Shown one piece after another: positions 7,249 to 40,640 of a stretch of 64,000 nt of DNA. Under the pieces are notes generated by a model. That model was not told where the DNA came from, made no database searches, and saw nothing but the letters and a program-made list of their open reading frames with translations. Position numbers and translations under genes: made by a program. Source of the DNA: Haematococcus lacustris (taxonomy: Eukaryota > Chlorophyta > Chlorophyceae > Chlamydomonadales > Haematococcaceae); the NCBI GenBank assembly GCA_030144725.1, contig JASKMD010000019.1, positions 8,358,760-8,422,759 of the forward strand, given 5' to 3'. How positions within the stretch are numbered: the stretch's first letter is position 1; each line of letters opens with the position of its first letter.

Positions 7249-8782
7249 TCGGGTAGTTAGGTGGTTGGGAAGCCACAGGGTCATGGGTATGTGTGTGTTT
7301 CAAACTACAGCCATGTTGTGGCACCAGGGACTGCAGAAGCTGCACATGCACTGAAGACATGGGAAGGCCATGCAGCCGCAGCAGCCACCTACCACATCTG
7401 TCTTAGCCACAACGACAAGCAGGCCGATGACAGCTGCTGTCAAGAGTAGGTCACAGCCAGTCGCAGCTGGGCAGCAGAGGTATGACAGCTGCAGTTGAGA
7501 GGGGAACAAGGACAGTTTGCAGCTGAGCAGGAGGTGCATAAAGCGCAGCTGTATACCACTTGTTGTGGAGCTGATAGCCTAACTAGGAGCAGTGGCAGCT
7601 GTTCATGGCCCCAGGCATGGCCCCTGGTGGGGGCTGCCAGGTGGACTGCAGCGAGCATTTCCTGGACACGCTGCAATGCGTTGAGCAGAAGCCTGGTGCT
7701 TAGGGAGCTGAGGAGTATGGATGGGTGCAGTGGGTGAGCCCAAGCAGGGGGGTTTGCCCAGGGCCAATGGCAATCGCAGCACTGCATGCTTCAACCTATA
7801 GGCCACAACATGTTAGCAGCTGAAGGATTGAGCGGTAGGAAGATTGAAGATGGCGCATGGTCATGGAGACGGTATGACTAAGAGGTTATGTGGAGATATG
7901 GGAGATGGTGAATAGGTGCAGGCCCGCAAGGCAGCAGCAACAATTGAACCTTTTTGACAATCAGGCTGAGCCTAGTTGTGCATTCATCTTTCCTGGGTAC
8001 AGCTGCCACTTGGGCTTTGTGTGGCGGGTGGAGGACTGAGGCAGGCAGGGTAGGGTCTCAAGGGTTGTTGCAGTGCCAGGTGGCAGGCAGGTGTCAGGTG
8101 CTCAGCTTGGAGGTCTTCTCAGGGGTGGCATTGCTGCAGCGTCAGGTGGGCTGTCAGATGCTCAGGGCTTCCATTCACCATAACCATCGCATGCCACTAG
8201 CTTCTGCTAATGGTGGGCTAAGGCATTTGATTGCAGCAGCAGCATGATGTGTCATGAACATTTGCCTTCAAACAAACATCTCACATCGTTTTGTTTTTGG
8301 TCATGGTTGGCTGTGGCATTGTATGCATGCGTCCAAACCTGTAATGCACTGGACGGTAAATGATAGTAGCGGCCAGGGCAATGGCTTGGCGCATATATTG
8401 AATGTGTTGTTTGCACTGGTGATGGTCATGTTGAGCCTCGTCGTCGTCCCTACGATCAGACGGCATGGCAGCCTGGGGCGACATTGATGAGCTACTCACA
8501 TGGCAAGCTTAATAACGTTTTGGAAAGGGGGCCCCTTGAGAAGTTGTGCATAAACTACCTTGCTGCATTGCACCAAGTGGCGACTGTGGCTGTGGAACAC
8601 ATGATGACAGTTAGAAGGAGGATGTGCAAAAATATGTTGACGGTATAAAGATCGTCGAAACCATGTATGGCATGCTCCCCAGCTTCTCTTGGGGGGTGCC
8701 ACCTCCCACAGGGCAGGCCACATGTAGACCCCGGGGGGGGGTGAAGTTGGTCAGCATTGATGCGCTCAAATTGTGGAGTGGG
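7249..8782. other. Carbonic anhydrase 3' UTR and intergenic sequence
   Basis: No protein family is recognised on either strand. A TGTAA, the usual poly(A) motif of volvocalean algae, is present at about 8340, but this is weak evidence for a transcript end. Confidence 0.35.
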
Positions 8783-9149
8783 GTGGGAAAGCAGTGAGTG
8801 TTCCTTGCGCTTGCAGCACACACTAAACCAGTAGACAGCCTCATAACTGTCTCAACCCACAATGGTATCAACAGCGGCACAGTGGCCAAGACTGTAGCGA
8901 AATCGACAGGAAGAGTGATGCTCGTCGCATCGGCGCTGCAGGTTTGTTTACGGCGCGAAAGCCTGTAGTGGGTCGAAACTCTACCCCTGGATTGCTACAA
9001 CGTCCAGCAAATCTATCAGAAAGGAATTGCGCCCACCGTGCCGGGGGCGGTGTTGGTGCCGTGCGGAGCTGACTTGTGCACAGGTGAATCTATACCCTGT
9101 TTAACTGTCCCTCGGACTTCGTTCTAAGTCCTTGTGTCTGTTAATAGGT
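8783..9149 (+). repeat. Direct repeat A (partner of 19605-19963)
   Basis: About 360 bp closely matching 19605-19963 in the same orientation, with scattered substitutions and a short insertion near 8945. A frame within it reads TKPVDSLITVSTHNGINSG and is shared by both copies after a cag acceptor, so it may derive from an exon. I do not recognise the protein. The pair flanks the Fanzor copy 1 locus. Confidence 0.85.
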
Positions 9150-9346
9150 CACTGTAATGATGCTTATGGGAGCTTGTTATTGTTACTGATTGATGGGTTG
9201 TAGGACAGCAGGGCTTGCAGGTTGTCCATTCACTAGGGCGGTTCCCCCCCCCAGCTAATATTAGTATTAGAAAAAATAGCCAGCCAACCATATTAGCTCA
9301 TATTAGCTCCCGATTTGTGTTGCGCCTTCGTTCGTTTCCTAGCGCG

Positions 9347-12026
9347 ATGGCTGCGCATGGTGGGGCTGTGGCCCCTGAGCACCTAGTTGATGATGCGCCA
9401 TCGGAGGCCGCCTCATGGACCCAGAGAGTTAAGAAGAAGACCCACAACGTCGCTGACCTGCTGAACAAGTTAAAGGCTAGTAAGGCCGTGCGCAAGGACT
9501 ACCGCGCGATGGTCGACCTGAAACTTAAAAAGGTCATCATAGCGTGCGTGCTGTGCTGGACGACGGTGAGCTGCTCCAACATGACGACTGGGCAATGCCA
9601 GCATGACGACCGTTGCTTCAAGCGGGCCGCTGCCGTCCCAACTCCCACCATCTCAGGCAAGCACAATAGCAGTCCCAACTCGTAATGCTGGGCTAGAGCC
9701 TACAGCCCTGCAACCAAATCGTCCCGCAGACCTTGCTCTTGCAACCTTGCTCTTGCACCCTTGCTCTTGCATTCACCATGCATGCTTTGCCTTGTGCACC
9801 CTAGCTCTTGCATTCACCATGCATGCTCTGTCTGCCTGCTTGCCTGCAGCGAAGCGACTCTGTCCCAAACAACAACGTCTCATTGACAGGTTCTTTGCAT
9901 TGTTCGTGGCGACCTCCGGTGTACCATATGCTGTGTGCAAGAACAAATGGTTGAAGAGAGCTCTCACTGCCCTAGGAGCTGACACCCTGTCCCCAAAGAG
10001 GCTGAAGACTACCTTGGACAAGGGGGCAAAGAAGACTGCACAGTTCTACGCTGACATGCATGAGAGTCTGGCGATGAAGGTAGGGTTGGGCTATGTCGGG
10101 CTGGGCTAGGCCGGGCTGGGCTAGGCCGGGCTGGGCTAGGCCGGGCTGGGCTAGGCCGGGCTGGGCTTGGGATGGGTTGGACATTTTGTCCCTTGCTCTT
10201 GGTCCCTTGCACTTAGGTGACGTGTGGTGATCCCAAGCTGTTGCTTGGGGTCATCATGGACAGCCCTTCCACAAACCGTGCGGCCCTACGCCTACTGGAG
10301 CGCAAGTACCACTCTTGGATTTGCATGACCTGCTGTGTGCACGCCATGAACCTCATCTGCAAGGACCTTGCCAACGAGAACAAGACTGAATCCAAACACA
10401 CTGCCGTGGGCGGCTTCCTGAAGCAGGCAAGTTGCCGCGCGCCAGGTACCTACTAGTGCATGCATGTGTTGCGTGCAGGTTGTGCATGCATGCATGTGTG
10501 CATGCATGCATGCATGCAGGTTGTGCATGCGCATGCATCACGTTGTTGGGTGGTGCTCACAACGGTGCTCACAGGTGCAACACATCTCCAAGGTGCTCAG
10601 TGACTGTGACAAGATCTGCAACGCCCTCCAAGTCCAACAGACGGCCATCTTTGGTGATGTTCGAGAGATAGCCACCCACTGTGCTACTCGCTTTGCCATC
10701 CTCCACAAGATCTGCCGAGACCTGCAACGGAGTAAGGCGGCCCTTTGTGAGATGGTGGCCAGCGGAGCGTGGGAGACGCTCAAGTCCGCATCCGTCAACT
10801 CATATGTGCTGGAGGAGATGCAATCACGTCAGTGTTGATGGCAGGGGATCCACACACCGCACAAGGGCCTGCCACCAGCCTAGCAACAGCCTAACGACAG
10901 CCTAGCAACAGGCCAGCAATAACATGATCTTGCCACCGTGTCTTGTGTGCAGCGTGCTGGTGGAAGAAGCTGGACGTTGTGGTTCGCCTGATGCAGCCAA
11001 TCAGCAATGCCATACACCGCCTTGAGGGCGACCATCCTACACTGAGCCAGGTAGGAGCTGAAGGGATAGTAGGGGGAAGTGGGAAGAGGATAAGCGGGAG
11101 AGGGTTTGCTACAGCTACTGCTGGCCCGGCATCAGTCAGCAACTCAGCATCGATGCCTTGTCTTGTGACTTACAGGTCATGCGGATCTGGGACGACCTAG
11201 TGGAGCACGCAAAGACCTGGGCGGCTAGTCGAGGTGATGTCGATGGAGAGGACAAGGTGGACGCAGATTTCGTGAGAGGCGTGCACAAGCTCTTCAAGGA
11301 CCGCGCCGCAAAACACTACCAGCCTGTCATGGCTGTTGCTAGGTAAGATGGTAAAACCCGCCCTGCTTGTGTCCTGCTGTGCCTGCCCAAGTACCCCTGC
11401 ACTAGTACCCTGCCCTAGTATTGAAACCCCTTTGTGCTTCGTCTGGATCACCCTGCCCTGCCCTTTTGCTTGCTTACCTGACTTTTAGGCTGTTGGACCC
11501 GATAAACTTCAAGTACCTTAACCACGTGGAGCAACCTTACCCAGACTTTGAGATCCTGACTGAGATGCAACGGGTGGAGCTGGAGCCAACAATTGCACGG
11601 CTAGCTGAAGTCCCCATCCGCATGGTCCAGGCTGAGCTTGTCAAGTTCGAGAATACAGAGTGGAGCCCCGCCATGAAGAGGAGGGCCTTGTCCATTCTGT
11701 CAATCCAGCAACCACCGGGCCGGGCCGTCATCCCCATCGCAAGCATCAACGCCCGCAAAGCCTTTTGGAGCGTGACGGCATCCAATGATTTCCCTGTCCT
11801 TGCCAAGGCAGCTGTCAAAGTGCTTTCGGTGCATGTCTCTACAGCTGCTGCTGAGCGCAACTGGTCCAAGTGGAGCCTTACCTATTCCAATGCCCTACGC
11901 AGCAACCTGGGCGTGGAGACTGCCAAGCGTGACATCTACCTCAAGGCCAACGTCGAGGAGACGGACAACATGGAGCGGGACAACATGGCACCCCCCCAGG
12001 AGACCCTCATCAACATTATGGCGTAG
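9347..12026 (+). CDS. hAT transposase (BED-like N-terminus, DUF659, hATC dimerisation)
   Basis: Cut-and-paste transposase of the surrounding element. Exon 1 starts at ATG 9347 (MAAHGGAVAPEHLVDDAPSE) and runs to a gtgagc donor near 9568. Later exons are about 9850-10079 (KRLCPKQQRLIDRFFALFVA), 10217-10424 (VTCGDPKLLLGVIMDSPSTN), 10575 to about 10830, about 10953-11049, about 11176-11342 and about 11490-12026. The IMDSPSTNRAAL...CCVHAMNLICKDL block is the DUF659 RNase-H-like segment with its Asp. The end (FWSVTASNDFPVLAKAAVKV, then STAAAERNW) is the hATC dimerisation domain. The exon ending FLKQ uses a gcaagt donor, so it is a GC-AG intron. Between exon 1 and 9850 a further small exon may exist. 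No in-frame stop was found in the recognised exons, so the gene may be active. Confidence 0.85.
10090..10168 (+). repeat. GGGCT-type repeat in a hAT transposase intron
   Basis: Alternating gggct and aggcc-type pentamers right after the donor at 10080; the same pentamer family as the array at 52157-52617. Confidence 0.9.
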
Positions 12027-14887
12027 ACTTTTGTAGCTTGTAGGCCACAACTAGAGTGGTGGCTCTGAGATGAGTCACACATGATTGAACGCATGCATGC
12101 ACCTGTCTCGTCTCCCGCTTGACGTTTTCCCTTTGCTACATTGATCATCTTCCCCCCATGTTCTCCACACTTCTACTCCTCGTCACTTATGCACCTCACT
12201 TAGTGCTTTGGTTGCTGTTGACAGTGATGCAACGTTGGACATGGGCAATTGGGAGCGGCTTAATGTAGTGTGTGATAGAACATTGTACCTGCTTAGTGTT
12301 TTCATGTAGTTTATGTCATTTCTTAGCACCTCACGTGCCCCCTTGCAGCTGGCAAGGTTGCGATAACAAGCTTCTTCTATTACACGGAAGTTTATCTATC
12401 GTCAGTCACGAAAGATAGCCTAAACTCTGCGGTTGGCAGGGATAGAACATTGTACCTCTCGATCCCGGACCACCCGGCCGCCACTTTAGCTAATATTAGC
12501 TCGTAGTAGCGCTACTATGAGCTATTAGGCCATTTTTGGCTCGGAGCTAATATTAGCGGACACGCCCTACCATTCACATCAGGACATCAACATGGGAACC
12601 TGTAAAATGCAAACAAACAAAACCGACAATTCCTAGTATTTGTGATGGCTTCACCTTGCTGTTTTCTATGGCTAAAAAAGAAAGACGAACCGTGCCTAGG
12701 CCAGTGCCGGAGGACTTGGACAGTGACATTGCGGACCGCGACGAGGCACTACAGCCGGACCTCACCGAAACGGAGCGAAAAAGAAAGGTTTCTGGAGAGG
12801 CCCGCGCTACCCGAGATGGCAGGAAGTGTAAGCTAGCCCACCTCATCGACCACTTGCCGCAAGAACTTTGGGATGCCTTCCTGGACGACGCGGTGCAGCC
12901 ACGCGTGGAGGCCTGCAGCGAGCGGGCGGTGCTCGCCAGCCTGCTATTGGGCTTACTCGTGCGCGGCTTGTTTACCATTCGCGTAGCCGACCCGCTGGGC
13001 CTGCACGACCAGCCCGTGTACACAGACATCCCAGTCTCCCAGGCAGCCATCCCGGACCTGAGCTGCAGGAAACTGTTCCTGCAGCTGGTCCGGGGCTTAC
13101 CCGGAAACGGCGCGAACACTCGGCCCAACGCGGCAGTGGCTGCCGTGCTGGCAGCGCACCCTGACCTCCGCGCCCGCCTCGCAGCAATCCCTCGCCACCC
13201 CTCAGACACCAACATGGTGGACCACGTCGGCAAGCAGCTGGAGACAGCTTTCAGCAACATGCTCACGCTGCTCTTCGCTGGCAGGCTCAAGAAGTCAGTG
13301 TCCCTGGCTGGGGCTAAGGTCCTGGTGGGCACTGAGGAGCACCAGCGCAGGTTTGGGTTTAGGGGGCTGGTTGGTGGGCACCTGCCAGCCTGGTCAAAGC
13401 GGCAGTGCACTTATGTGCGCCGCATGGTGTGCGGGCTGGACGTCAGCTGGCTGGTGGGGGAGGGTGGGGTGGTGCCGACTGTAGCCATGCAGGCTGAGGT
13501 GGCTTTGCAACGGGGCCTGCTGGGGCTTGAGGAGGGGGAGGAGGTGGATGATGACTGGGTGGAGGATCCAGGCAACCGGGGCCGGCTGCTGCGCCATGCG
13601 GTGCACACTACCAGAGAGATGGAGGCAGCCATGGCAGCCTGGCAGCTGGACATGGTGCCCTGGCAGCAGGCTGAGCTCACCAACCCAGGGCTGTTGCCCA
13701 GGCCGCCCCGCCCCCCCACACCCTATGCCCTCACCCCCACCAGCAAGTGCAGTGTTCGGCATGTCTTCATTGACACACTGGGCCTCTACGGCATGATGCG
13801 TGACGCCGGCATGCTGGGGGTGCTGACGGAGGAGGGGGTCACCTCCTTGGCGAAGTTCAGGAACGGTGCCCTACCTGACCCAGCGAGGCCGGGCCACTAC
13901 ATTGAAGGGCCCAAGAACAGCCATGTGAGTGCTCCTTGCAGTCAGGTGCCAGCCAGTCCTTGGGTGCTCCATCAGCTGCCATGTGTGCTGTCAACTGCCT
14001 TGTGAGCCTCCAGCCAGCTGCCTTGTGCCTGCCTTGTGAGCCCACACAAGCTAATGAGGTGCCATGTATGTGTATTAATGGCTACAGGTGGCCAACCGAT
14101 GGGATGCATTGCTGCCGGACCCGCGCCGCCAAAAGCTCGCCAGCCCCAAGCACAGCTTCGCGCAGATCGTGCACACCGACGGAGTCGCCCTCAGCGTCAT
14201 GTTCCTGCGGCCCAAGCCTGCCGCTCCACCCGCAGAGCTGCCGCGGATGGGCAGGCACATGGGCGCAGTCAACCCGCTGGCCCACCTCGACGCGGAGTGG
14301 TTGGGCGTGGACCCAGGCAAAACAAACATGGCAACAGTGGCGCACGAGGAGCGCAGCGCTGCCGGCACAGTGGTGTCCGTGTGGCAGAGATCTCTAACCT
14401 CCGGGCAGTACTATCGCGACAGCGGCATCAACCGGCAAGCCCAGGCGACCAAGACGTGGCTGGCCCAGCTGAAGCCGCAGCTCAACGCCTTGTCGCACGT
14501 CAGCAGCAAGCCCAGCTCGCTGGCCTCGTACCGGCGGTTTGCCGACACCGTCCTGGCGACGTACGACGCCATGTGGGCCGAGGTCTCCAAGCCGCGCTGG
14601 GCCAACGCCAAGTTCAGGCTGAACTGTGGCAAGAAGCGCGTGGTGGCAGGCTCCTGGTCCAAGGTAAGGCCTCTTAGCAGTAGGCCTAGAAGCTAGGCAG
14701 TAGCCAATCAAAGTCAGCTCATGCTCTTACACCTGGCCTGCCGCTGTTGCTATACCTGACCTTACGCATGTGTGCCTTGTGTGTTGTACGGTACAACCTC
14801 CCGTAACGACCCAGCCTCCCGACCCACCCAGGGCGCCGCCCTCCCCGGCCTGCTCGCCTTCCTGTACATAGCCTTCCTGTACATAGT

Positions 14888-15633
14888 GGGGTCAGGTCAG
14901 GTCAGGTCAGGTCAGGTGGGGTCAGGTGGGGTGGGGTGGGGTGGGGTGGGGTGGGGTGGGGTGGGGTGGGGTGGGGTGGGGTGGGGTGGGGTGGGGTGGG
15001 GTGGGGTGGGGTGGGGTGGGGTGGGGTGGGGTGGGGTGGGGTGGGGTGGGGTGGGGTGGGGTGGGGTGGGGTGGGGTGGGGTGGGGTGGGGTGGGGTGGG
15101 GTGGGGTGGGGTGGGGTGGGGTGGGGTGGGGTGGGGTGGGGTGGGGTGGGGTGGGGTGGGGTGGGGTGGGGTGGGGTGGGGTGGGGTGGGGTGGGGTGGG
15201 GTGGGGTGGGGTGGGGTGGGGTGGGGTGGGGTGGGGTGGGGTGGGGTGGGGTGGGGTGGGGTGGGGTGGGGTGGGGTGGGGTGGGGTGGGGTGGGGTGGG
15301 GTGGGGTGGGGTGGGGTGGGGTGGGGTGGGGTGGGGTGGGGTGGGGTGGGGTGGGGTGGGGTGGGGTGGGGTGGGGTGGGGTGGGGTGGGGTGGGGTGGG
15401 GTGGGGTGGGGTGGGGTGGGGTGGGGTGGGGTGGGGTGGGGTGGGGTGGGGTGGGGTGGGGTGGGGTGGGGTGGGGTGGGGTGGGGTGGGGTGGGGTGGG
15501 GTGGGGTGGGGTGGGGTGGGGTGGGGTGGGGTGGGGTGGGGTGGGGTGGGGTGGGGTGGGGTGGGGTGGGGTGGGGTGGGGTGGGGTGGGGTGGGGTGGG
15601 GTGGGGTGGGGTGGGGTGGGGTGGGGTGGGGTG
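14888..15633 (+). repeat. GGGGT pentamer array in Fanzor intron 2
   Basis: It starts with a few GTCAG units, then runs as about 140 uninterrupted GGGGT units. It lies between the gtaagg donor at 14664 and the acceptor at 16799. The long open frames on both strands (Gly-Trp-Gly-Gly-Val and His-Pro-Thr-Pro-Pro) are artefacts of the 5-bp period. Confidence 0.97.
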
Positions 15634-15649
15634 GAGGTAGTGTCTCACC

Positions 15650-16515
15650 TGGTGGCATCACCAAACCACTTATCCACTAAGGCCAAGCCATAGTGCACGT
15701 CCGCAAGGTTGGCGTGATCTGCTTGGATGGCTGTCAATAGCTCAGCCACGGGGACCATCAGCTCCACCAAGCAGCTGTTCAGTTTCCACCATGGCTCAAA
15801 CGTTGGCATAGAGTGTAGGGGTAAAGGGTAAAGACATAAGTCATCTAGGATTCTGCTAACCTGGGCAGGCCGGGCCGGGCCGGGCAGTTAAGGGCAGGGC
15901 AGGGCTTGGGAGGTGGTGGGCTGGGTGGTGCTTGGGAGGTGCTGGGAGGTGGTGGAGGGGTTTGGGAGGTGGTGGTGATGAGCACATGGGATCGGGAGGG
16001 GGTAATAGTGCACCTGGTCACGAGAGGGGACAGGCATTGCAGGCACCCAGGTAGCCAAGAAGGTCTTGAACGTTGGGTTGTCCACGATGTTGAAGTCCTT
16101 TGTCCTCCACAACACCTGTAATGTGCACAGAACATAAACAATAGTTCAGTACTATTGCACCCTCCTAACACATCGTGGTCCTAGGGTTAAGGTCACCTGC
16201 GCGAGCTGTCGACTTGCTGCTCGGGGTGGTCACAACATCCTCGTTCTTGCTTGTACGCTTCAATGGCTGCCGCGAGTTCTGGGAAGGTCTTGGCGATGTT
16301 CAATGCCTGCGTGCTGGCCAGAAACTTCGTGCAGTGCAAGAGATGTCTCTTAAGGCGGTCCTTGTTACTGCTCGCCTCCTTGTTACTGCTCGCCTCCTAG
16401 TGATTGCAAGAATAGCGTAGAACGCCGTCGACATGGCCGTCAGTCTCGCTTGTTGGTATTGTGACGGCCGTTAGCTGTTCCATCACCCACGCCGACTTCT
16501 GAGTCTTGTTTCTCT
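15650..16515 (-). pseudogene. hAT transposase relic in Fanzor intron 2
   Basis: Minus-strand fragments in N- to C-terminal order resemble a hAT transposase. They are a BED-finger end NKDRLKRHLLHCTKF (near 16360), then LWRTKDFNIVDNPTFKTFLA (near 16100), then LVELMVPVAELLTAIQADH and LADVHYGLALVDKWFGDATR (near 15780-15650). An in-frame TAG precedes the BED end and no complete gene can be built. It is therefore a decayed hAT insertion, opposite in orientation to the host Fanzor gene. Confidence 0.7.
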
Positions 16516-16639
16516 TCATGAATGAGCCTCCACGTCGGAAGCGATGTGCCTCTCAGCCCTGAGGCCATCCGCTTCTTACATTGTTGTGAAGCCTCCGACA
16601 TGTTGCGACGATAGCCGACGGCCTGCTGCGCGAGTCTGT

Positions 16640-16772
16640 AATTACGTAATTACATGGCCGTATGTAATTACACGATTTCCCTGCGGACAACCATGTAATT
16701 ACAAAGTTACAAAGTTACAGAATTACGCGTGTAATTACATGTAATTTTGTAAAATTACATGTAATTCTGCAT
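16640..16772. repeat. AT-rich tract of GTAATTAC palindromes
   Basis: The self-complementary octamer gtaattac and close variants (tgtaattac, gtaattaca, aaattacatg) recur about ten times in 130 bp, just upstream of the Fanzor exon 3 acceptor. The composition is unlike the GC-rich surroundings. Confidence 0.8.
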
Positions 16773-17002
16773 CACTGGTTGTACCATGTGTGGATGCAGG
16801 TCAAGAAGCAGGCACAGAAGCGGTGGCCGGACCGCATCCTGGCCCTGGCCTACGGGGCAGCTAGCTTCAGCGGCAGCGGCAGCGTTGGCTGCAGGGGTGT
16901 CCCAGTCAGCCAGATGCGGAAGGAGGCAGTGAAGCAGTTCGGGGCAGGGCGTGTGGTGTTGGTGGATGAGTTCCGCACCAGCCGGGTCAGCTCAGCCTAC
17001 AG

Positions 17003-18696
17003 TCAGGTCCCACAAGGTCAGGTAAAATGGCTCGAAAAGATGTACCGTCACTTTTTGTCGCGTATACTGAACTCCAAGAGGTCAAACCGCGACGCCCCGT
17101 TGCGGCGTGCAGCTCCGCAGCTTGGCCTGCGAGGGACGGGCTAAAGTCAACTTTGCCCCCCTCCGCGGTATCCTGGCACCAGTGACTCCTTGCACCCTAA
17201 CGGTAGTGCACTTGCATACAATAAAGCCGCAGCAACGAGCGAGGTAGAGCGGCCACTAGTCGGTCGGTCGGCGTACCGGGATGGGGTGCCGTCATGCAAA
17301 TCTGCAGTGCTATTTTTGAGATCGATTTGCCGCTTGTTGCTGCTACGTAATCGTCTGGTTTCTGCGCCCTAGCTTTGAAGTATGCTAGAAAGAAAAAAAA
17401 AGAAAGAAAGACTACTCCCCCCGAAGCTTCAGGGGGCGTGCACTAAGGAACCGCGCGCCGCTTCTGGTCTTTCACACCATGGGAGGGGCCCCCGCGGGCT
17501 GACGTATGCCTAAAGGGCGCTCTCACAGCACGACACGCCCCGGCTCGGAAACGTGTCTACCCTCCTGAGCTTCATAGGAAATTAGCCTACTCCACTCCAG
17601 CTCCCACCCCGCACGATGGCGGGCACTGCCCTCAAGAGAGATCGATTACGCCAAATATTTCTGGCCCCTTGCGGGTGTCGATCCCCCGGCCTCTCGCAAG
17701 AAGAGGGAGGTTTGTAGCTACTGAACCACACCTGCTGCATGGGGTGCTACTGGCTTCGGGTCCTAACCCGGTTGATTGAAGTATGCTCATAGCTCCCATT
17801 AGAAGCTATTGCAGTGTATTACATCTGCCCTGCGCAGCTTGGGAAGCTCCTGGAATTACGGTGCGTAGAAGTCTTATTTCTAGGCAGGAAGTGCATCAAA
17901 CGCCGTGCTGACCTCCTTCATAGATGCAAGAGAGGTGCCTCGAGCATCTCTACCTTGCCCAATAGCGTTATCCTTAGGATTGACACCCATAGATACACCA
18001 GACATATCTACCATGCTCATGTCTGATTTACTCCATTATCTCGCGCTCATCAGGCTGCGACGAAGGTAGAGATTGTTCAGGTTCCTTCCAGCTACCACCA
18101 GCGTTCATCAGCGGCACAAATGATGCAGATTTGCGGCCATTTTAAGCGATGGGCCGACGCAGTCAGCGTAGTAAGAATAGGAAGGATAGGAAAGCATAGG
18201 ACAGCAGAGGATAGCTGAGGATAGCATAGGAAAGCGTAAGAAAGCATAGGAAGCTCTCATCATTCATCAGCCCTCTCAATAATGTCGTCGAAGGAGAGAC
18301 CAGAAAAAAACAGTTCCTTCAGTCATGCTGCCTGTAGCTCATAGTATATGCTTTGATGTGGTGGAGGAGGAGGGCCATTGCAACGCTTAGGCATGTATCA
18401 AGCGAGCTGCGACAGCCCGATGCGAGATGCGAGCCACCCCGTTACCGAACATAACCGCCGGCCCTCGCGCAAGCGCTGTTGTAGACCGTACCTACTGGCA
18501 CCCGCGTTAGAAAGAACGCCGCATCCATATACATTAACCTTGCCACCTGGACACTTGTCGACACTGGTGGGCGCCCAGGCCGTGCAGGCCCTTTGATGCA
18601 GTAGGCATATCGGGAAGGCTCGCTGATCAAGGCTGCGTAAGCGCGGCATCAAATGGCTCACGGTACATTTTGACAAACAGACCTTGTGGGACCTGA
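17003..18696. mobile_element. Non-autonomous DNA transposon, 17-bp TIR, 7-bp TSD, copy 1
   Basis: It starts TCAGGTCCCACAAGGTC and ends with the exact reverse complement. The 7-bp duplication CCTACAG flanks it (16996-17002 and 18697-18703). Removing the element and one duplication restores the Fanzor frame (SSAYSHPSEALPG). A second complete copy is at 49969-51411. No transposase is recognised in either copy. A SINE is nested at 17387-17775. Confidence 0.93.
17387..17775 (-). mobile_element. tRNA-derived SINE nested in the transposon
   Basis: It is absent from the second transposon copy (near 50345), which gives a clean empty site. The 12-bp duplication TTGAAGTATGCT lies at 17375-17386 and 17776-17787. 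On the minus strand there is an A-box-like TGGTTCAGTAG followed by a B-box-like GGATCGACACC, as in a tRNA promoter. The far end on that strand is a CTTT/T-rich tract (17388-17411 on the plus strand reads as purines), so the tail is T-rich rather than poly(A). Confidence 0.8.
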
Positions 18697-19270
18697 CCTA
18701 CAGCCACCCCAGTGAGGCCCTCCCTGGACAGCCGCCAGAGTCCTTCAGGTGAGAGGGTCAGTGGGTGATGGTCGTTGGGTCAGGGTAGTGCTTGGAGGTG
18801 GTGGAGTCAAGGTGGCTGGGTAGGGTCAGGATTGAGAAGGTAAGGAAAAATTCTACAAATGTGCATTGCCCCATGTGTCCATGTAGGTGGCTGCGGCCAG
18901 TGTACAGCAAAGCAAAGCGTTCCCAAGTCAGGGGCTTGATGTGCTCAACAAGCAACAACATCAGGTAAGCACTGGCCTGGCACCCCCCTAGCACTGACTT
19001 AACCCTACAAATGTGCATGACATGAGCATATCTCGCATGACATGGCACATGGGGTGACTTCATGCACCTCCCACACCCATGTGCAGGTTCTATGACCGGG
19101 ACGTGTCAGCCGCGCTGAACATCCGCCGCTGCGCAGTTGGCCCAGGCCCACGCCCTACTGAGCTGTGCTACTGGGACAGCCGCCCAGCCATGCCAAAGCC
19201 AGGCCAGGAGTGGGTGTACGTGCGTGACAAGGCACTGTTGCGCAAGTGGCGGCGCAAGTGGCGGCGATAG

Positions 19271-19522
19271 CCAGCTACAGCAATACAACCCAAGAAAACA
19301 AGATACCAAACCCCTCACAAAGGGGATGTGTGTGAGTAAGAGCTACAGAGTAGGGTAGGGCTCTTGCTAGTAGTAGACCTGGAGGCACACACACCAGAAG
19401 GCTGAGCTGAAGTGGGCAGTAGGCACACTGTAGGTAGCCTTTACAATAATGATCTCGCAGCCTGTGTTTGATTACAACTCATGCTTTCTTTTGGTGTTGC
19501 ATGAGGGCTGTAGGGATCAAAA
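19271..19522 (+). ncRNA. Candidate Fanzor guide RNA (fRNA/omegaRNA) region: conserved 3' tail
   Basis: This non-coding stretch follows the Fanzor stop codon and is strongly conserved (by eye) with 27609-27880 on the minus strand, although neither codes for protein. Seen: a cccctcacaaagggg hairpin at about 19310 and an agagc...ggctct pairing at about 19342-19364. Known: TnpB and Fanzor guide RNAs lie at the 3' end of the nuclease gene and extend to the element end. Inferred: this is that RNA. Simple UTR homology between element copies is the alternative. Confidence 0.45.
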
Positions 19523-19542
19523 CTTGTGTCTGTTAATCAAAG

Positions 19543-19612
19543 GTGGGAAAGGTGGGAAAGGTGGGAGGTGGGAAAGGTGGGAAAGGTGGGAAAGGTGGGA
19601 AGAAGGTGGGAA
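19543..19612 (+). repeat. GGTGGGAAA tandem repeat
   Basis: About eight units of gtgggaaag with minor variants link the right Fanzor boundary to direct repeat B. Confidence 0.9.
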
Positions 19613-19963
19613 AGCAGTGAGTGTTCCTTGCGCTTGCAGCACACACACTAAACCAGTAGACAGCCTCATAACTGTCTCAACCCACAATGGCATCAACAGC
19701 GGCACAGTGGCCAAGACTGCAGCGAAATCGACAGGAAGAGTGATGCCCGTCGCATCGGCGCTGCAGGTTTGGCGCGAAGGCCTGTAGTGGGTCGAAACTC
19801 CACCCCTGGATTGCTACAGCGTCCAGCAAAGCTATCAGAAAGGAATTGCGCCCACCGTGCAGGGGGCGGTGTTGGTGCCGTGCGGAGCTGACTTGTGCAC
19901 AGGTGAAGCTATGCCCTGTTTAACTGTCCCTCGGACTTCGTTCTAAGTCCTTTTGTCTATTAG
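19605..19963 (+). repeat. Direct repeat B (partner of 8783-9149)
   Basis: Same-orientation copy of repeat A. It carries the shared peptide frame TKPVDSLITVSTHNGINSG and the shared end ctcggacttcgttctaagtcc. The remaining bases up to 20158 are the AP180 5' region, with nothing else recognised. Confidence 0.85.
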
Positions 19964-20158
19964 GCTTGCTTACACAGGGTCACAAGTGACACAGGTCACT
20001 AAGGCCCACTGTTGAGCTCCTCTGCTGAGGACAGTTAGCATCGAGGCACTTTATGGCTCAGCGCGCTTGTTTTGTGCGCTGCCGCTCAGGCCTCGCCCCG
20101 CAGCTGTTGAGGCAGCTTATCTTTCGCATTAGAGGCTTGAGGCCAGCAGTTCTTCACC

Positions 20159-23100
20159 ATGGATCCATCAGAGAAGCAGGCCGCGAAGTACAAGTCGAAG
20201 AACCTGATGGGATACATCCAGGACAAGGTTGATGTGGGAATCACCAAGCTACGCAGCGACGAAGGGGTGGACTTGGACGTTGCGGTTGTGAAAGCCACGC
20301 TGCAAGACGAGGTGGCCCCTAAAGACAAGCATGTTCGCACGCTGAAGGTGGCATGCAGCGGCTCGGCTCCTCGCCAGCAAGTCAGCTATGTGATCCATGG
20401 CCTGGCCAAGCGGCTGGAGGAGAAGTCAGGTTGGCTGGTGACCCTGAAAACACTGATTGTGTTCCATCGCCTGATGAGGGAAGTGGACCCATCCTTTCAG
20501 GTGACTGCCCAGAGCAGCAGGTGTGACAGGAATAGCATCAGCACACAGCATCAGTTACAAGCTGCAAGTGCCATCTGCTGCCTTCTACCCCATGCTGATT
20601 GCGCTATTGTAGTTGACTTAAACCACTGCTGCCACTGTACTCAGACACCAGGTGTCAGGCTTTGGCCGCTCACTTTGTGTTGTGCTCATGCCTTGTGCTG
20701 CCTGGCATGTATCGTTTGCATCACATCCCTCTCCGCTTTATCACCATCAGCTATGTATCTCTAGCTGCAACCCATGCCTTTACTTCCTGCTCTCCTGCTC
20801 ACCCCCCTCAGCTCACACATCATATCTTTCTCACGCCACGTCACTGAGGACAAGATCATCCGTTACTAGGAGCTACCCCTACCCCTACGCCACCTGTTCC
20901 TCTACACCTCCACCTGGTCTTCACTTCTTTGTATTGCAAGCTGTGCACCCACCCACCCACCCCAGCTCCCTGTCCCGCACTACACCTACAGTTTGACTGC
21001 GCGCCCTTCCTTCCCATCCACACGCTGCAGGACGAGATCATTCGGTACCAGGAGCGCACCGGGGCTCACCGCATGCTGCGCCTGGACTCCTTCGCTGACC
21101 ACACCACACGCGACACCTGGGACTACTCCGCCTGGATCCGAGTCTACTCCGTCTACCTGGACGAGCGCCTGGGTGCCTTCAAGAGCATGCGCTTTGACCC
21201 TGAGCTGGAGGCGGTGGGGGCGGGGGGTGGGGCAGGCGGCCACGATGGCTTCACTGCGCCTCAGGCTAGGGGGGACAGCAGCAGCAAGCTCAAGAGCTGT
21301 GGGGCGTCGGAATTGCTGGACAAGCTGCCCCAGGTCAGTTTGCTGGGGGTGGGTGCGGCTGAGGGTGGGTAGGCTGAGAGTGGGTGGGTGAGCTCATCAA
21401 GGCTGGGGCAGGGTGGGGCACTGACTAGGGGTGGGTATGGGGCAAAAGGCTATGCAGAGTGGGATGCAATGGTTAAAGTTGGGGTTGGGGTGAGGGTTAG
21501 GGGTCCCTGGTAGCTGCCCATATCCATGGCAGCTTGACCCCCATGGCCCCCACTGCTACACTCACAACCAGCCCCATGCCCTCATGGCCAGCTGTGCAGT
21601 GAGGCATCTGTTCCCGCCCTCACTGCTGAGCATGGCACCACAGCCCCCAGCTGTCCCCAGTACACAGAAAGGTTCCTAATTTGGCTAGGCCTATATTGGT
21701 CGTTCTCCCATTTCCGCTCTTCAACACGCATGCCTCCTTTCATACACGGTCGTTGAAGGTTATGAGGACGTTGTGAGTCGGTTTGCGGCGGACTATCGCG
21801 TTTTGTCGGCTGAGATGAGGCTGCCACCGGTTACGCCCATTTGAACCCTACCGGCCGTTAAGGTCCCGTGTGCACTAGCGCGACGAAATACTCAAGCGAG
21901 CGCGGCCCTCCTAGACACCTTGGTGGGTACACGATGTAGCGCAGTTGGTGCGCTTTGGTTTATTGCTACCCTTTGGCCGCGGTCTTGCGTTGAAAATGTT
22001 CTCTCTCAGCTCTCGTGTCATTATTTCGGTCTCATGTGCCCAGGTCCTACCGCACACCACCAGCCCTTATGGCCAAACTGACCACTGGTGCTTCTCGACA
22101 GTCCAGCTTGGCTTAAGACAGCACAGGCGAAAGAGCCAAAAGGCTCTTGGCAGCTGCTAATGCTTACTTGAAGGTCAAGAGGGGCCAGCCACAGCCATCC
22201 ATGGCAGCTGTGGCCCGGGAACATTGCGTTCCATATGCCACCCTCCACAGAGTCATCAAGCGGGGAGGGGTGATCGCAAAACGTGGGCGCCCAACAGCTT
22301 TGTCAGCTGTGGAAGAGGAGCAGCTGCGGGACTTGGTAGTGAGGGGCCAGCAGCAGGGTGTGGGGGTCACCAAGACAGCATTGCTTGCATCTGTGAGGAC
22401 GACGCAGCGGGTCATGGAGCGCAAGGGCAAAGTGGACCCCTTCAAGGGGAAGGCCCCTGGCAAGAATTGGCGTCAGGGGTTCATGCGGCATTTAGTTATA
22501 ATTAATTACTTGAAATATATAATATAATACCGATAACAATACATGTCGGGCGGCATTTGAGAAGAGCGTGCACTTGAGAAATGGCTTTCACCCCCCAGAC
22601 AAGGATAACATGCTAGCAGCAGCAGCAGCCAGCATGGAGGGTGGCAAGCAGCAACCAACCTTCAAACCCTGGGTACCCTTGACAGTCGACGCCGCAATGT
22701 TGCGTGTTGCAGCTCAGCGATCAGCCCAACCGCAGCCCAGCTTACTTTTTCCAGCAGAGGATAGGTTCTATTTCAAGCATGAGGTGGTTGCTGAGGCAGC
22801 CAAGCAAGCTCCAAAGGCCAGCAAGCGATCTTGCAAGTAGCATGCTTGCATGTGCATGTGCGCAACTTTGAGTGCCTCTAGACTGCCACGTGATCATGTT
22901 TTTGACAAGCTGCTAGTTTTGATAGGGGCATTGGGATGGGCAGGAGCCTCTACAAAAGTCGTGGTGCCAATCTTCAAGTAGGTGGACAAAAGCAACGACA
23001 TGCTCACATTAGGGGACTTTCAATGTAAAACTGGTTTTTTGGAGGTATGGTACTAAAACATGTCATATCTTTGCTGCTGATGGGCATAAGGAGACAATCA

Positions 23101-27348: not shown

Positions 27349-27608
27349 GCAACAAGGCAGGCGCGGTGCAGGCCCCTTGAGCAGCAGGCGCGGTGAAAGC
27401 GCTGCAGGCGCGGTGCTCAGCATCTGATGAAGTGCGGTCGCTCTCGTACTTGTCGGCTTAGTCTCATTAATAGTGCTTGCGAGTAGTGATGGGTTACCTA
27501 GTTGCCACGCCTCTTCGCATGTTGTCGCCGTCTTGTTCTAATCCTGGTTGTAGCAATTGGAGTTCATTCTGATTTGTTCCATTGATTGTCGGTGACTGTA
27601 GTCTAACA

Positions 27609-27888
27609 AGTTTTAATTCCTACAGCCCTCATGCAACACCATAATAAAGCACGAGTTGTAGTCAAACATAGGCTGCGAGATCGCTGTTGTAAAGGCTGCT
27701 GCTAATGTGCCTACTGCCCATTTCAGCTCAGCCATTCTGGTGTGCGTGCCTCCAGGTCTACTACCAGAAAGAGCTCTAACTAACCCTACAGCTCTTGCTC
27801 ACACACATCACCTTTGTGAGGGGTTTGGTGTCTTGTTTTCTTGCACTGTCTTGCAGTAGCTGGCTATCGCCGCCACGTGCGCAGCACT
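27609..27888 (-). mobile_element. 5'-truncated insertion of the Fanzor 3' tail
   Basis: On the minus strand it begins within the last codons of a copy-1-type Fanzor (gtggcggcgatag, TWRR then stop) and continues through the whole conserved tail to aattaaaact. The 12-bp duplication TGTAGTCTAACA flanks it (27597-27608 and 27889-27900). A 3'-end-only insertion with a long TSD is typical of target-primed reverse transcription, not of a cut-and-paste transposon. Confidence 0.8.
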
Positions 27889-28118: not shown

Positions 28119-30323
28119 CTACTGTGCCTCAGCAGGCTGTTCCTGGGCCTTGGGTGGCTTGTCTCGCAGCCGCTTGTAGCCCAGGCCAGGGTACTCCTTG
28201 CCCTTGGCTGGCAGCTTCCCCTGCTCTGGACAGTAGCACAGCTCCAGCGGGCGCCACCTGCTCTCCCCAATGCGCTGCATGTTCAATGCTGCATTGCAGT
28301 CCCTGTCCAGCCACCTTCCTGGCTGCGGTACTGGCTTGGCTTTGTCAGCCTTGCCCTGGGCCTTGCCTTATCCCTTGGTGGACTGGCTGGGCTCAGCTGC
28401 CTGCTCAGCCTCGGTGCGCTTGTTGCGCTTGGCTGGAGGGGGAGTGCTGGGTCCTGGCTGTGAGGCTGCTGCCAGTGTGGCTGCCTGGCTGCTGCGTGGG
28501 GCCTGTGGGGGCTTACGGGGGGCCACTATCGGGCACCACATCAGGCCCCGCACTGGCAGGTCACGCTGCTGGCTCCAGGCTGGGCGCAGCAGGCGCAGGT
28601 CCACCTGCCCTGCTGGGGGGCTTCCAGTCTGCACGCCTGGTGGGCTGCTCATGGTCCAACTCCTCCTCACAGTGCTGCTTGCCATTCACTGCTGAGCTGA
28701 CCCGGGTGGTGCAGTGCTCATCCACTAGCACTACCCTGCCCCGCCGCTGGCCTGCGCCCCTGGGCCTGCACACCACCTTGCAGCAGGCCCGCAACACCGC
28801 ATCAGCACCCCACCCTCCCCCAGTGTCAATGCCAGCAGCGCCAAAGAACACAACCAGCTACTTGGCATGCCCATGGCGCTCCATGGACACCTTCGCCATG
28901 TCCTCCTCCAGCTGCAGTCATGCACACAAGGCACACAGATGGTGGCTGACATGGTGGCACCAGGTTAGGCATGGCACAGTCCACTACTCTTTCACGTCAT
29001 GCCCACCACCTCTCAGTCCCTTACCCTCCCTCCCACCCACGCACCCCCACCTTCTTGAAGAACTGCTCCTCGGTCCTAGGCTCCGTACAGTCGCAGCCAC
29101 TTTTGTGCCCATTTGGGTCCAGGTACACCTCCCACACCGCATCCCAGGTTGCCAGGGTGACGGTGATGTGCTTCAGGTTGGCCTCCAGGGATGTGCCGGC
29201 TGAGCTTGCTGCTGCCAGGTGCTAGAGGTGGGGCTTGATTGGTGCTAGCCATCGCTCGGTGTCGTGGCGGGAGTTGTTGAGGCCGCTGGCATGCTTCACC
29301 TGGCCCTTGGTCAGCTTTCACCGGGCCAGCTAGTCAGCTACCAGCTACCTGCAGGGACCCTTGCTTCTTCATGCCCAGTAGGCGGCGGTGCTTGTCGGCC
29401 TCCTCTATCAGGTCAGCCACATGCGTCTTGTCCAGGTTGGCGGCCTGCAGCTCTGAGCTCTGCAGAAATGAGCATGGGGTGGCGACGCTGGTTCTTGCGC
29501 ACAAGCCGCCGCCGCAGCTGGTTGTAGAACGTCAAGAAGTTCGGGTTGGCGAAGAACTGGCTGAAGTCCTTAAGCTGCCTGAGCATCACGCTGTCAAGGG
29601 GCAAGGGAGGGCTGTCAAGGGCTGCCAACCGGGCGCTGCCAAGTTGGGGTGGGCTGTGTGCCAAGTTGGGGTGAGGCTCCGAGTCAGACTGTGACTCCGG
29701 CTCAGAGTCGCAGTCTGACTCGGAGTCAGAATCACAGTCCAACTCCGTGCTGGCAGGCTGGGCAGGGGCAGGCTGAGCAGGGGCAGGCTGGGCAGGGGCG
29801 CGTGGGGGGAGTGGGGGGAAGGGGGGTGCATCAGGGGCTTGGGAGGGCTGCACGGCTGGAGGTGTGGGTGCACATGCATACCCCGGGGTGGGGTAGCCCA
29901 CCAGGCAGGTCAGAAATATACGCAAACAAAAAGCGAGGCGATGACTTGAAGCTGGAAGTGCGCCATTAGCTTGCGCTTAGTCTTTTTGCAGCCGCGCAGC
30001 ACAGGACCACCCGGGACTTTGATGGCCTGCGGCCAAGCACAATCAACATTTGCCAGGCCACTTTGACAGGCCAAGACACGATGCGGGGACACAAACAGTG
30101 CGGGGACACACAAGGCGGGGGCGGCCTTTAACCTGGCGCCTGCTCGTTGCCCAGCCATCCCGGCGCTCCTGTCGTTGTTTCCTTTGAGGGGGACGAGACG
30201 CTGCGATGGAACCAATAGGAGCGACGGGTTATTACACAGCGCGTAACTCACGTAGCTCACAGTCGGCTAGGGACACGAACCTTTCTGTTTCTTGTCGCTA
30301 CCCTTCCGCTTCTTCTTAGCCAT
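28119..30323 (-). pseudogene. Fanzor-like nuclease, copy 2, degenerate
   Basis: Minus-strand homologue of copy 1. Exon 1 (30323-30281) is MAKKKRKGSDKKQK, an SV40-like nuclear localisation signal, ending at a gttcgt donor. Later blocks are KKTKRKLMAHFQLQ (near 29960), KLTKGQVKHASGLNNSRHD (near 29300), ITVTLATWDAVWEVYLDPNG (near 29150), LVVFFGAAGIDTGGGWGADA (near 28830), RuvC-II VVLVDEHCTTRVSS, VRGLMWCPIVAP, and RuvC-III RWLDRDCNAALNMQRIGESR with PLELCYCPEQ. In-frame stops are seen at 28370-28368 (TAA), 28860-28858 (TAG), 29224-29222 (TAG) and 29320-29318 (TGA). There is also a one-base frameshift in a run of six C at 28615-28620. RuvC-I is not recognisable with confidence; NLDKTHVADLIEEA near 29420 may be its remnant with D-to-N. 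The family is not in doubt, but many exon edges are. Confidence 0.8.
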
Positions 30324-32115
30324 CACGCGATGCGCAGTGCAACGGGCGGTGGCCTTTTCAAGCAATTTGGGTTTCACGGGAGATTCACGGAGATTCATGT
30401 ACTACAGCCGTGATTCAGACAATACTTTGCAGCTTAGTTTGTTAGTTTGTCCAGCTCCTCCTCCTGGATGGACCAGTCATCAGCCCAGCAGGAACTAAGT
30501 ACTATGAACAGAGCAGAGCAGCGCCGCCAGCGTTAGAACAGAGCAGCACCGCCAGGTGCTTCATGAGGATAAGCATGAGAAGTCCAAACCTCGACACCCG
30601 AAACACGACGCCTATGGTAATGACCCCGCAATGACTGATGCACCACAGCCCGTCACAGCAGGGGCCTGGCCCTGTGGCAGGGAGGTCTCATAGCCATGTC
30701 TACCCAGGTGGTTTCAACAGCATGGCCACAACACATAGGCAATGCCAGACCAACAAAACTTATTCAACAAGGAACAACATGTTGGGCTGTGGGTAATCTC
30801 ACTCAGCTACTACAAACACGTTGTAGCATCCTCGGTCGCACCCTTGATGACTGCAAACCCCAAGTCGATGGCACGTTCCAGGGGCAAACCCCCTGACCAC
30901 TGGGCTACTCATCAAAACTAACAGCTTGAATGCTTGTGAGGCTAACAGCCTGTGCAAACTACTAGGGCCTACGCATTGTTGCGGGCCCGACCATCAATGC
31001 CCCGCCGGTACTCTGCAGCGATTTAGCAACACCATCCAAGCGAGCTAGGGGGGGCATCAGGTCGCCATTCACCCGGAGTGCCGGCAACCGGAGTGGGGCG
31101 AAAATGAGATCCATTACACAATCCATTACACAATCCATGTGAGTACAGGCCCTGCTCAAGCCAGGCTACTTCAGCAGTAGGCTATGTGGCAACATAGGCA
31201 ATGCAAGGCAGGACCTGCAGGACTCAAAGTTTCAGGCTTTCTCGCCTGCCCGGCCCCTCCCTCTCCATGCTCCTGCTCCACTCCTTCTCCATGTTCCTGA
31301 ATCCCTGTTTCCCGCTGAAGGCCATTCAGGCTGCCCATTCAGGAACCCAGGCCAGTTGTCCCTCCTTCATGTCCAGCTCCTGGTCTCCAAGTGTTCACTC
31401 TCATTACTCTCACCACATGCCCTCCTGCCTCTTCCTCTCTGCCTGCCACACTGCCATCTTACTGAGGCTGAACTGAAAGGGGTTCACACTGGAAACCGGC
31501 TGTAGAGCCAGCAGGTTGCAGCTGCCTGGCCGAATCGCCAGGTATGGGCAGCTGGCGCCCTGTGAGACAAGCTGACGGCTGTGGCAGGTGCGCGTGGCAG
31601 GGCTGGCCTGGCCTGGCTGCCCTCACTTAATCTCCCGCTTTGCTTTCAACCCCACTCAGGCTAGGTCTGCCGGGATGCTCCTCCGCGGGCCAGGCTGGCT
31701 TGGCTCGCAGGTTCAATGCCTGGGCCACGGTGGCAACCCTACAACGCAGCAAAGTTCCCAAACGCAGCAAAGTCCCCAACCGACCACCTGGCCAACCACC
31801 TGGCCAACTACCAACCAACTAAGCAAATGGCTGGAATCACGCATGTGTACACACCACACTGAAAGAGCAGGATGGCCCTTGCCGCAAAAGCTTGGGACTG
31901 GCACTCAATTGTGTCATGTCAATGCTGTGCAGCAGCATGGCAATCACTGCTGCAGATGTCGACACTGTAGGCTGCAGCAGTCGCCACTGCATGGCTGTGA
32001 TGACAGCCTGTGCATGGTGAGTGACTCAGTGTTGGTGGCAGAGTCAGCAGTGGGGGCAGCGGCAATGGCAGCGGCAACAGGAGCAGTGTGCTGGGCAGCT
32101 GCAGGCTTGGTGGGC
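30324..32115. other. Intergenic sequence between Fanzor copy 2 and the Mpv17-family gene
   Basis: No gene is recognised. A tRNA-like A-box (TAGCCCAGTGG) is present on the minus strand at about 30888-30898. A poor B-box match lies near 30830, so a decayed SINE is possible. The rest is unassigned and includes the Mpv17 gene's 3' flank. Confidence 0.35.
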
Positions 32116-38514: not shown

Positions 38515-40640
38515 CAGTCCGAGCTGCCCGCTAACATCGCGTGATGAGCTGCACCGCCCTGCGCAAGAGCCGCTGTAAAACTCTTTGAAGACTAGTACGA
38601 TTTTATCAGGGGTGCCGCCAATGGCGTCAATGGCCTGGAGTGCTCAAGCCCGCGCTTCTACAGCTTCAGGCGTGCGCGCTGTGCCACGCTGATACCGGCG
38701 GTGTGCTACTCGTTGGCATAGTCAAGGACTTTGTGACATGGACAACGAAGGTTTGCGGGGCCAATGGCGGGGTAGATCACTTCTCATTGCCTGTTGTGTG
38801 ACCCGGCGGATCAAATGGTGAGCTTTGCATTCGTCGGCACACACCCGCCGCACACTCCAGGGCGCACTCGTGTGTCGCAGCCGAGGTACTACTGCACCCT
38901 TGGCCACAAATTCAAAGCTCGCTGCATCCAGCCTCGGATACCTTAAGCAATCACAGGTGAGCTAGCGGCGCTCTCCGAGGAGCAACAGGTCTAGGTTCGC
39001 ACGCCATTGTCGCCAAAGGCCGTCACCTTATTGAACCGCCAATTGCCCTAGCATGCGCACGCCCTAGCTATTACAGCTTTGCGATAGCGAGAGGGCCGCA
39101 GCGCTAGACATGTTCCCAAGAGTCGCTTAGGACGGCGGCTTAGCACCTCACCGTTCTGTGTCCAAATTCTTCACTGCCACTTTTAGCTGTTGCCCCACTA
39201 ATCGCACCACCCGCCTCCCAGTCATGCGGCTCTCGGTGGGTCAAGGGCGCGCTTGTTGCTATGTTTGCAGGGTCACCGCAGTATGCCGCAGTTGCGCAGC
39301 CCGTGCGATGCCCCTGAGCGGTCCGAGTGGCCCTTGTCGAGTGGCAGGCTAGTGCACCCACGACCCTTGAGTCAATCGTCGCCGGCCTCCATTTTTGCGC
39401 TACTTACCTTGCTGCTGGCCGTCCCTGCTTCTGCCCAGTGGAAGGTCGGTCGAGCAACGTGGTACGACGACGCTGCCTGGTGAGGCTCACGTGATGGACT
39501 ATGTTGCTCGCTCCTAGCTAGGGACCGCGTGCTGAGTGCCTACCTCTATGCTGCGTTGACGACCTGAACATGCACCAGGCCCTTCACGTATGCTGCCAGC
39601 TCAGTGCTGCTTTACTAATCTGCTCGCATTGCCACTATGCATTCTCCCCTCGCTTGGCTGCAGGATGTCTGTTCACTCCGGTTCATGCATGTATGGTGAG
39701 TGCTGCATGTGACAGCACCCAGCACTGCACCAGAGCACCAGCCCAGCACTGACATTAGGTGTTGATATGTAGGTATGACTAGACCGGCTTGTTGCCCTTG
39801 CCTCCTGCTCAGGGTACCTTGGCAACAAGTTCGGTGGGAACCAGAACTGGATGGTGGCAGCCATGAATGATGGGCACCCACGCTTTGGTGGTAGCTGCGG
39901 GTGAGTTTATGCTGTCTGGCTTGGGATGGAAGTGGTGGTGTCGAGCTGGCTGTAAAGAAATGATTGCACATGGGGCTGCTACTTGGTGACGGTGTCAGCA
40001 ACTAGCCTGGAGAGTTGTGATAGCATGTTGTGAAGCTGTGCGGGTGTGGATGCTGATGCTGGATAGTTGGCAGGGGCATTGTTGGAAGGGCTCCTTTCTC
40101 CATGCTTGGACCCAACCTACCTGCTGCTGCTGGTCCGGGCTTGTGTTGCGCAGCCGCAGCAGCCGGCCGCTTGGCCCAGCCTGCATGGCCGTGTGACTGT
40201 CCTGGTCGGTGTGACGTGTGTGAGGGAGGACTGGTGCCACCAGGGCCAGCACATGGCCACCAGGGCCTGAAGGGGAGGGCAGGCAAGAAGCCATGCACGC
40301 ATCCCTGCTTGCGTGTATGCTTGCATTCTGTTCGAAATGTCTTGCACTGCTGGTAGTGTTGTGCATGACATGAATCTGCTGCACTTCATGTTGTTCATCT
40401 TGCCTGTCAACTATAAACTGTCGAGCAGTTGCCTGTTTGGCTGTCAGTGGCATCTGCTCTAGTACTGGTCGTAAGCATGGGTTGCGGGTGGGAAGGGTTC
40501 ACGTATCACATCACTAGCTACTTGCCTATCCTTGCTGCTGCTTCTGCTGTAGCTGCTGGTGCCATGTTACTAGCATGCTTGGATGGGCACCTCAGATTGT
40601 ATATCTGATGCTGCAGGCGTTGCTACAAGATTCGCTGCAA
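38515..40640 (+). repeat. Duplicated segment, first copy (uninterrupted)
   Basis: It is nearly identical to 44976-45173 joined to 62162-64000. It carries the 5' region and first exons of the expansin-like gene. At 38702-38709 it holds the single TGTGCTAC that is the empty site of the hAT at 45174-62161. Homology continues to the window end, so the true right limit is unknown. A 20-mer at 38753-38772 also occurs in the inverted repeat at 53480-53505. Confidence 0.93.

Follow-up and report, generated by a model that had tools for sequence, protein, structure and literature searches.

A degraded Fanzor1-type gene without a C4 zinc finger in a probable Helitron2-like element of Haematococcus lacustris

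The closest described relatives of the locus reported here are CRe-1, CRe-2 and CRe-3, Fanzor1 elements of Chlamydomonas reinhardtii that the excerpted text of PMC3627910 classes as non-autonomous Helitron2. In the corresponding excerpt of PMC10711439, Fanzors are recognized by a fingerprint of DPG in RuvC-I plus an alternative glutamate six residues ahead of the zinc finger, and a four-cysteine (C4) finger is present in 'many' of them. SpuFz1 of Spizellomyces punctatus, as the excerpt of PMC10432273 describes it, combines a CCCC zinc finger with inverted-repeat ends. Here we analyzed a 64,000-nt stretch of DNA (the window) from the green alga Haematococcus lacustris that contains a Fanzor gene at 12668-19270; coordinates are window positions, and features lie on the forward strand unless stated. 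We consider it likely that this is a degraded Fanzor1-type gene within a non-autonomous, Helitron2-like rolling-circle element that has reached a high copy number in H. lacustris. This view builds on the observed exons, D/E/D residues, fold of relatives, C4 loss, constant 3' end, duplications after YTG, retained intron 3 and later insertions.

In comparison with the CRe elements (excerpted text of PMC3627910), the Haematococcus element likewise carries a multi-exon Fanzor1 gene with introns kept and is present in high copy number. Copies of both keep the 3' end while showing 5' truncation and internal deletion, both produce duplications that vary in length and follow a short word, and both can have additional sequence between the duplication and the consensus 5' end. 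They differ in the target word, which is NYTG in Haematococcus, and in the 3' end, which here is AAAACTTG. A search that predated recognition of the true 5' end at 9146 revealed neither a Helitron 5' end nor an asymmetrical terminal repeat. The loss of the C4 finger is a further difference, known for the Haematococcus side alone.

The gene comprises five exons and four introns, and every intron is bounded by GT and AG. Exon 1 (12668-13924) encodes the N-terminal helical part, and exon 2 (14088-14663) the RuvC-I motif GVDPGKTN with D494 (codon 14310-14312). Exon 3 is split by a transposon: its first part (16800-17002) carries the RuvC-II motif VDEFRTSR with E668 (codon 16968-16970), and its second part (18704-18748) resumes 3' of the insertion. 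Exon 4 (18887-18964) falls where the lost zinc finger would have its second half, and exon 5 (19087-19270) holds the RuvC-III motif YDRDVSAALN with D725 (codon 19100-19102) and the stop codon (19268-19270). The exon lengths total 2343 nt, or 780 codons plus stop. The positions of D494 and E668 come from the translation of exons 1-3a, and D725 and the 780-aa length were derived from exon lengths. This confirms the spliced gene of the initial annotation in its exons, splice sites, length and catalytic positions. Compared with relatives, the window copy has two in-frame deletions, one of 6 codons in exon 1, the other of 3 codons in exon 5.

The assignment to Fanzor1 draws on predicted structures of two relatives, P0002 and P0005, whose sole significant fold matches in the PDB were Fanzor1 proteins. 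The best of these was SpuFz1 (PDB 8gkh, 9ceu, 9cey, 9cez), at 12-14% identity in the Foldseek rows. For one of the models the match also extends over the N-terminal half, with residues 51-675 aligned to 8gkh 18-542, and E668 pairs with the catalytic E541 of SpuFz1. For the second model, the VIA rows give Fanzor no clear lead over Cas12 proteins. The window protein itself shows the Fanzor fingerprint, with GVDPG in RuvC-I and E668 followed by FRTSRV and then the zinc-finger position. It also contains the motif D-x(125-275)-[TS][TS], with 176 residues from D494 to T671, and RD at 724-725. The three-part RuvC arrangement is thus present as D494, E668 and D725, with the fold predicted from the relatives.

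A RuvC fold and an RD motif are shared with TnpB of IS200/IS605 and IS607, including ISDra2 TnpB and a TnpB encoded on a viral contig (locus L001). The latter, identified as TnpB by its PDB matches, also has a glutamate six residues ahead of the finger; it differs in reading DLG where Haematococcus has DPG, and TnpB is a shorter protein with an intact C4 finger. BLASTP of relatives against the L001 protein gave E-values of 1e-7 (P0005) and 2e-4 (P0066), which are too favourable because the locus was picked by motif: a motif pattern matched 83 stretches in viral contigs, one of which encodes a relative. Three profile and sequence searches weigh against the Fanzor assignment. The window gene had no match in Pfam, NCBIfam or PDB sequences, the relatives reached PF07282 below threshold only, and a PF07282 search of the alga's own genome assembly (307.9 Mb, 597 contigs) returned no match. 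The initial annotation had named a missing profile match as grounds for abandoning its Fanzor claim; we take the fold search to override it. That claim has the support of the predicted fold, the fingerprint and the TnpB match and lacks that of the profiles; the C4 finger is absent. Fold and fingerprint together support a Fanzor1-type gene of a variant without the C4 finger, the fold being that of modelled relatives.

The whole Fanzor element, later insertions included, spans 9146-19526. It is flanked by the target duplication TGTCTGTTAAT at 9135-9145, with CTTG directly before it, and at 19527-19537, directly after the element end. A search of the alga's own genome with the element 5' region yielded 1,252 candidate matches, of which 40 were scored, and we compared 20 genomic stretches and four short ones (24 loci). 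Seven loci whose 3' end lay outside the sequence were left out. Adding a 5'-truncated copy in the window (27607-27888, reverse strand), which consists of the 3' end of the element only and has the duplication TTAGACTACA with GCTG directly before it, gave 18 independent insertions; the window copy and L032 share TGTCTGTTAAT and were counted as one. The copies show identical exon order, and many have internal deletions. They share a constant 3' end (...GGGATTAAAACTTG, varying little and terminating in AAAACTTG), beyond which the sequence differs from copy to copy. The 3' end of L028 is ambiguous.

In 12 of the 18 insertions, the letters that follow CTTG are found again close to the 5' end, giving a 9-12-bp duplication; none was seen in L034, L035, L038, L042 or L029, and that of L051 is weak. 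In a control with mismatched pairs of flanks, an insertion's own length was reached only for the window/L032 twin, for L051 and for the insertions without a duplication; the control was run on loci other than the fragment at 27607-27888 and the three loci of a later comparison. The duplication is preceded by YTG in 12/12 cases (GCTG 4, GTTG 3, CTTG 2, ATTG 2, ACTG 1), for which the chance is 8e-17, given how often YTG occurs in the window and assuming independent sites. As the word was anchored on CTTG, the TG could belong to the duplication, and every target has TG either way. IS91 has a comparable end and target word. No convincing inverted match was found between 11400-12700 and 19300-19540, ranges that were set before the true 5' end was known. 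A candidate 5' hairpin at 12489-12557 was rejected, its palindrome being the end of a hAT transposon. Separately, a 360-bp direct repeat (8782-9143 and 19605-19962, 94.5% identical) brackets the element. It could represent a target duplication of great length, of the kind reported for certain CRe elements, or a repeat in its own right. We propose that a Rep protein acting in trans would nick the donor at CTTG and the target at NYTG, and that copying would start at the element 3' end, which would account for the frequent loss of 5' ends.

Next to this, the loss of the zinc finger bears on whether the encoded protein is active. At the finger position the window protein reads SSAY ... CSTS, so the C4 motif of Bao and Jurka for Fanzor1 is absent. 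The register was set by the published spacing and by the BLASTP alignment to the L001 TnpB. Relatives fall into two families. Of 7,996 scored proteins, 195 belong to family A at E<=0.001, the best-scoring at 89% identity to the window protein, and the second family has 940 at the same threshold; in each, all 120 matches listed are from H. lacustris, and the families are ~30% identical to each other. A broken copy of the second family lies in the window at 28119-30326 on the reverse strand, with VDEHCTTRVSSA and LDRDCNAALN; no RuvC-I motif was found in it. Gene models of this family often duplicate the C-terminal part (e.g. P0158).

In an alignment of 47 relatives, the four ligand columns hold S/T, Y/D/R/H/V, C/S/W and S/G. 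No row has more than one ligand cysteine. The whole finger segment contains 0 or 1 cysteine in 59 of the 63 family-A proteins with all three motifs. The second family also lacks the C4 spacing, and its segments (101 counted) contain two cysteines in 73 cases, three in 20, one in 6, four in one and five in one. The catalytic residues present a different picture. Among 154 family-A proteins, RuvC-I was found in 108 (D in 106), RuvC-II in 93 (E in 92) and RuvC-III in 101 (RD in 98). The 47-row alignment keeps D/E/D in 46, 47 and 47 rows, and the P and G of DPG in 45 and 47. Constraint on catalysis would give such a pattern, but the copies are young.

It is quite possible that the Fanzor is a catalytically dead passenger, in which the fold remains and zinc-finger loss ended RNA-guided cutting before the families spread. 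The 47 rows have no cysteine at columns 671, 674 and 712 and one at 709, the third ligand column, in only 23, and spread of the element requires no Fanzor activity, internally deleted copies being common. Conversely, D, E and D are conserved across two families that are only ~30% identical, while just 52/241 columns of the RuvC region in the same rows are conserved at >=97%. The second predicted model also retains strands where the finger would be, and the second family keeps some cysteines nearby, so that other metal binding would be possible there.

The 3' end of the element offers a candidate partner for the protein. Its terminal 78 nt (19449-19526), which end in AAAACTTG, have a strong stem structure and are 95.1% alike among 14 copies, against 85.3% in the preceding 52 nt (L032 was excluded for an insertion). 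The RNA fold of this stretch, which was picked after inspecting the aligned copies, beats all 200 shuffles (z -4.67). The last 78-91 nt also contain a stem structure of the kind expected for a Helitron2-type 3' hairpin (DNA z -3.1, RNA z -4.7). The RNA fold of the whole 266-nt 3' region is not unusual (z -1.2; minus-strand copy z +0.5), and scans of the window gave no Rfam match at the gathering threshold and no tRNA. SpuFz1 likewise has a conserved RNA region of ~75 nt in the interval from stop codon to element end, a 75-nt scaffold in the same place with its guide in the flank (excerpted text of PMC10432273). The 78-nt end is a candidate omega-RNA scaffold, rolling-circle terminator or both; a function as scaffold is only suggested because a terminator would look alike. 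Under the Helitron2-like reading, Fanzor from intact copies would bind RNA made from the element 3' end and cut DNA matching element-adjacent sequence, which would favour retention of the element. A stronger version strikes us as doubtful. It holds that this is an active Fanzor1 lineage without the C4 finger, that the finger fold is held anyway, that the 78-nt RNA takes its guide from the flank after CTTG, that the empty site has NYTG immediately ahead of the guide match, and that NYTG is both nick site and target-adjacent motif. Against the last part, the element itself ends in CTTG, which means that the donor would be cut too unless further bases count.

Variable 5' ends, a fixed 3' end and 9-12-bp duplications are also features of spread by target-primed reverse transcription, as for a long interspersed nuclear element. 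We regard this route as unlikely, since intron 3 is retained (130-157 bp) in 10/10 judged copies, those having exons 3b and 4, and no poly(A) or simple-repeat tail was seen at the element 3' ends.

The Helitron2-like element of the window has itself been the target of later insertions. A 3.3-kb hAT transposon (9234-12569; ends TAGGGCG/CGCCCTA) sits inside it, 98 bp upstream of the ATG, with the 8-bp duplication CCATTCAC at 9226-9233 and 12570-12577. It has a hAT dimerisation domain in an open reading frame at 11406-12026, and the same site is empty of hAT in L004 and L005. Intron 2, which is 141 bp in L032, contains a 1,988-bp insertion (14790-16777, no strand assigned) with the 7-bp duplication GTTGTAC at 14783-14789 and 16778-16784 and a (GGTGG)144 array at 14915-15634. 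Exon 3 is interrupted by a 1,694-bp transposon (17003-18696) with the terminal inverted repeat TCAGGTCCCACAAGGTC and the 7-bp duplication CCTACAG at 16996-17002 and 18697-18703. Nested within this is a 389-bp insertion (17387-17775) flanked by repeats TTGAAGTATGCT. A sister copy at 49969-51411, 83-93% identical over aligned parts, has its own 7-bp duplication CTAGGGG and its own insertion of ~160 bp. The initial annotation was therefore right about the exon-3 transposon and wrong in calling it the only obvious lesion. A target preference of this transposon for xCACCCC was rejected: two copies are alike and a third (L039) differs in the left flank. In P0126 (gene model QJQ45_025663, another locus) an apparent end of the same transposon lies at the same Fanzor site in opposite orientation; read from the protein sequence, it is apparently a repeat hit or an inversion.

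Since exon 3 is interrupted and the gene is separated from its upstream region, a functional protein is most likely not produced from the window copy; transcription of its 3' end would still be possible. Among the 20 stretches, all 10 copies in which the site is covered on either side have an unbroken exon 3, as does L031, which bears out the expectation of uninterrupted paralogues in this genome. It is very unlikely that the exon-3 transposon acts as an intron, introner-like, leaving the gene expressed. Its ends offer a donor (CAG/GTAAAA, 17022) and an acceptor (AACAG/ACC, before 18681), both in phase 0, with open frames, and splicing there would lengthen the message by 42 nt without a frameshift. 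Aureococcus introners carry both splice sites and add bases (excerpted text of PMC9860276). However, phases would match by chance one time in three, the pyrimidine tract of the acceptor is poor, the upstream hAT and the 2-kb insert in intron 2 would persist, and the peptide QVPQG of such a product occurs in 0/274 relatives. Finally, a non-Fanzor RNase-H-like family with D/E/D by chance, which the empty profile searches would allow, is barely credible given the predicted Fanzor1 fold into the N-terminal half, the DPG and alternative-glutamate fingerprint and the TnpB match.

Elsewhere in the window, an open reading frame with an ANTH domain (20141-20761) starts ~600 bp beyond the element end, and two 1.84-kb stretches (38702-40544 and 62162-64000) are 98% identical.

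Searches of an open-licence library listed no paper on Haematococcus Fanzors; PMC12633428, in its excerpted text, names Fanzors in green algae and Haematococcus in separate places only. That a green alga has a Fanzor is no surprise, because Chlamydomonas elements with Fanzors were found in 2013 (excerpted text of PMC3627910), and as an algal Fanzor this one is ordinary. The family is of moderate interest. Less expected are two high-copy families that keep D/E/D yet have no C4 zinc finger. Since ends, target word and duplications are readable in many copies, two open questions become testable: whether the zinc finger is required for cutting, and whether a Fanzor aids the spread of a rolling-circle element.
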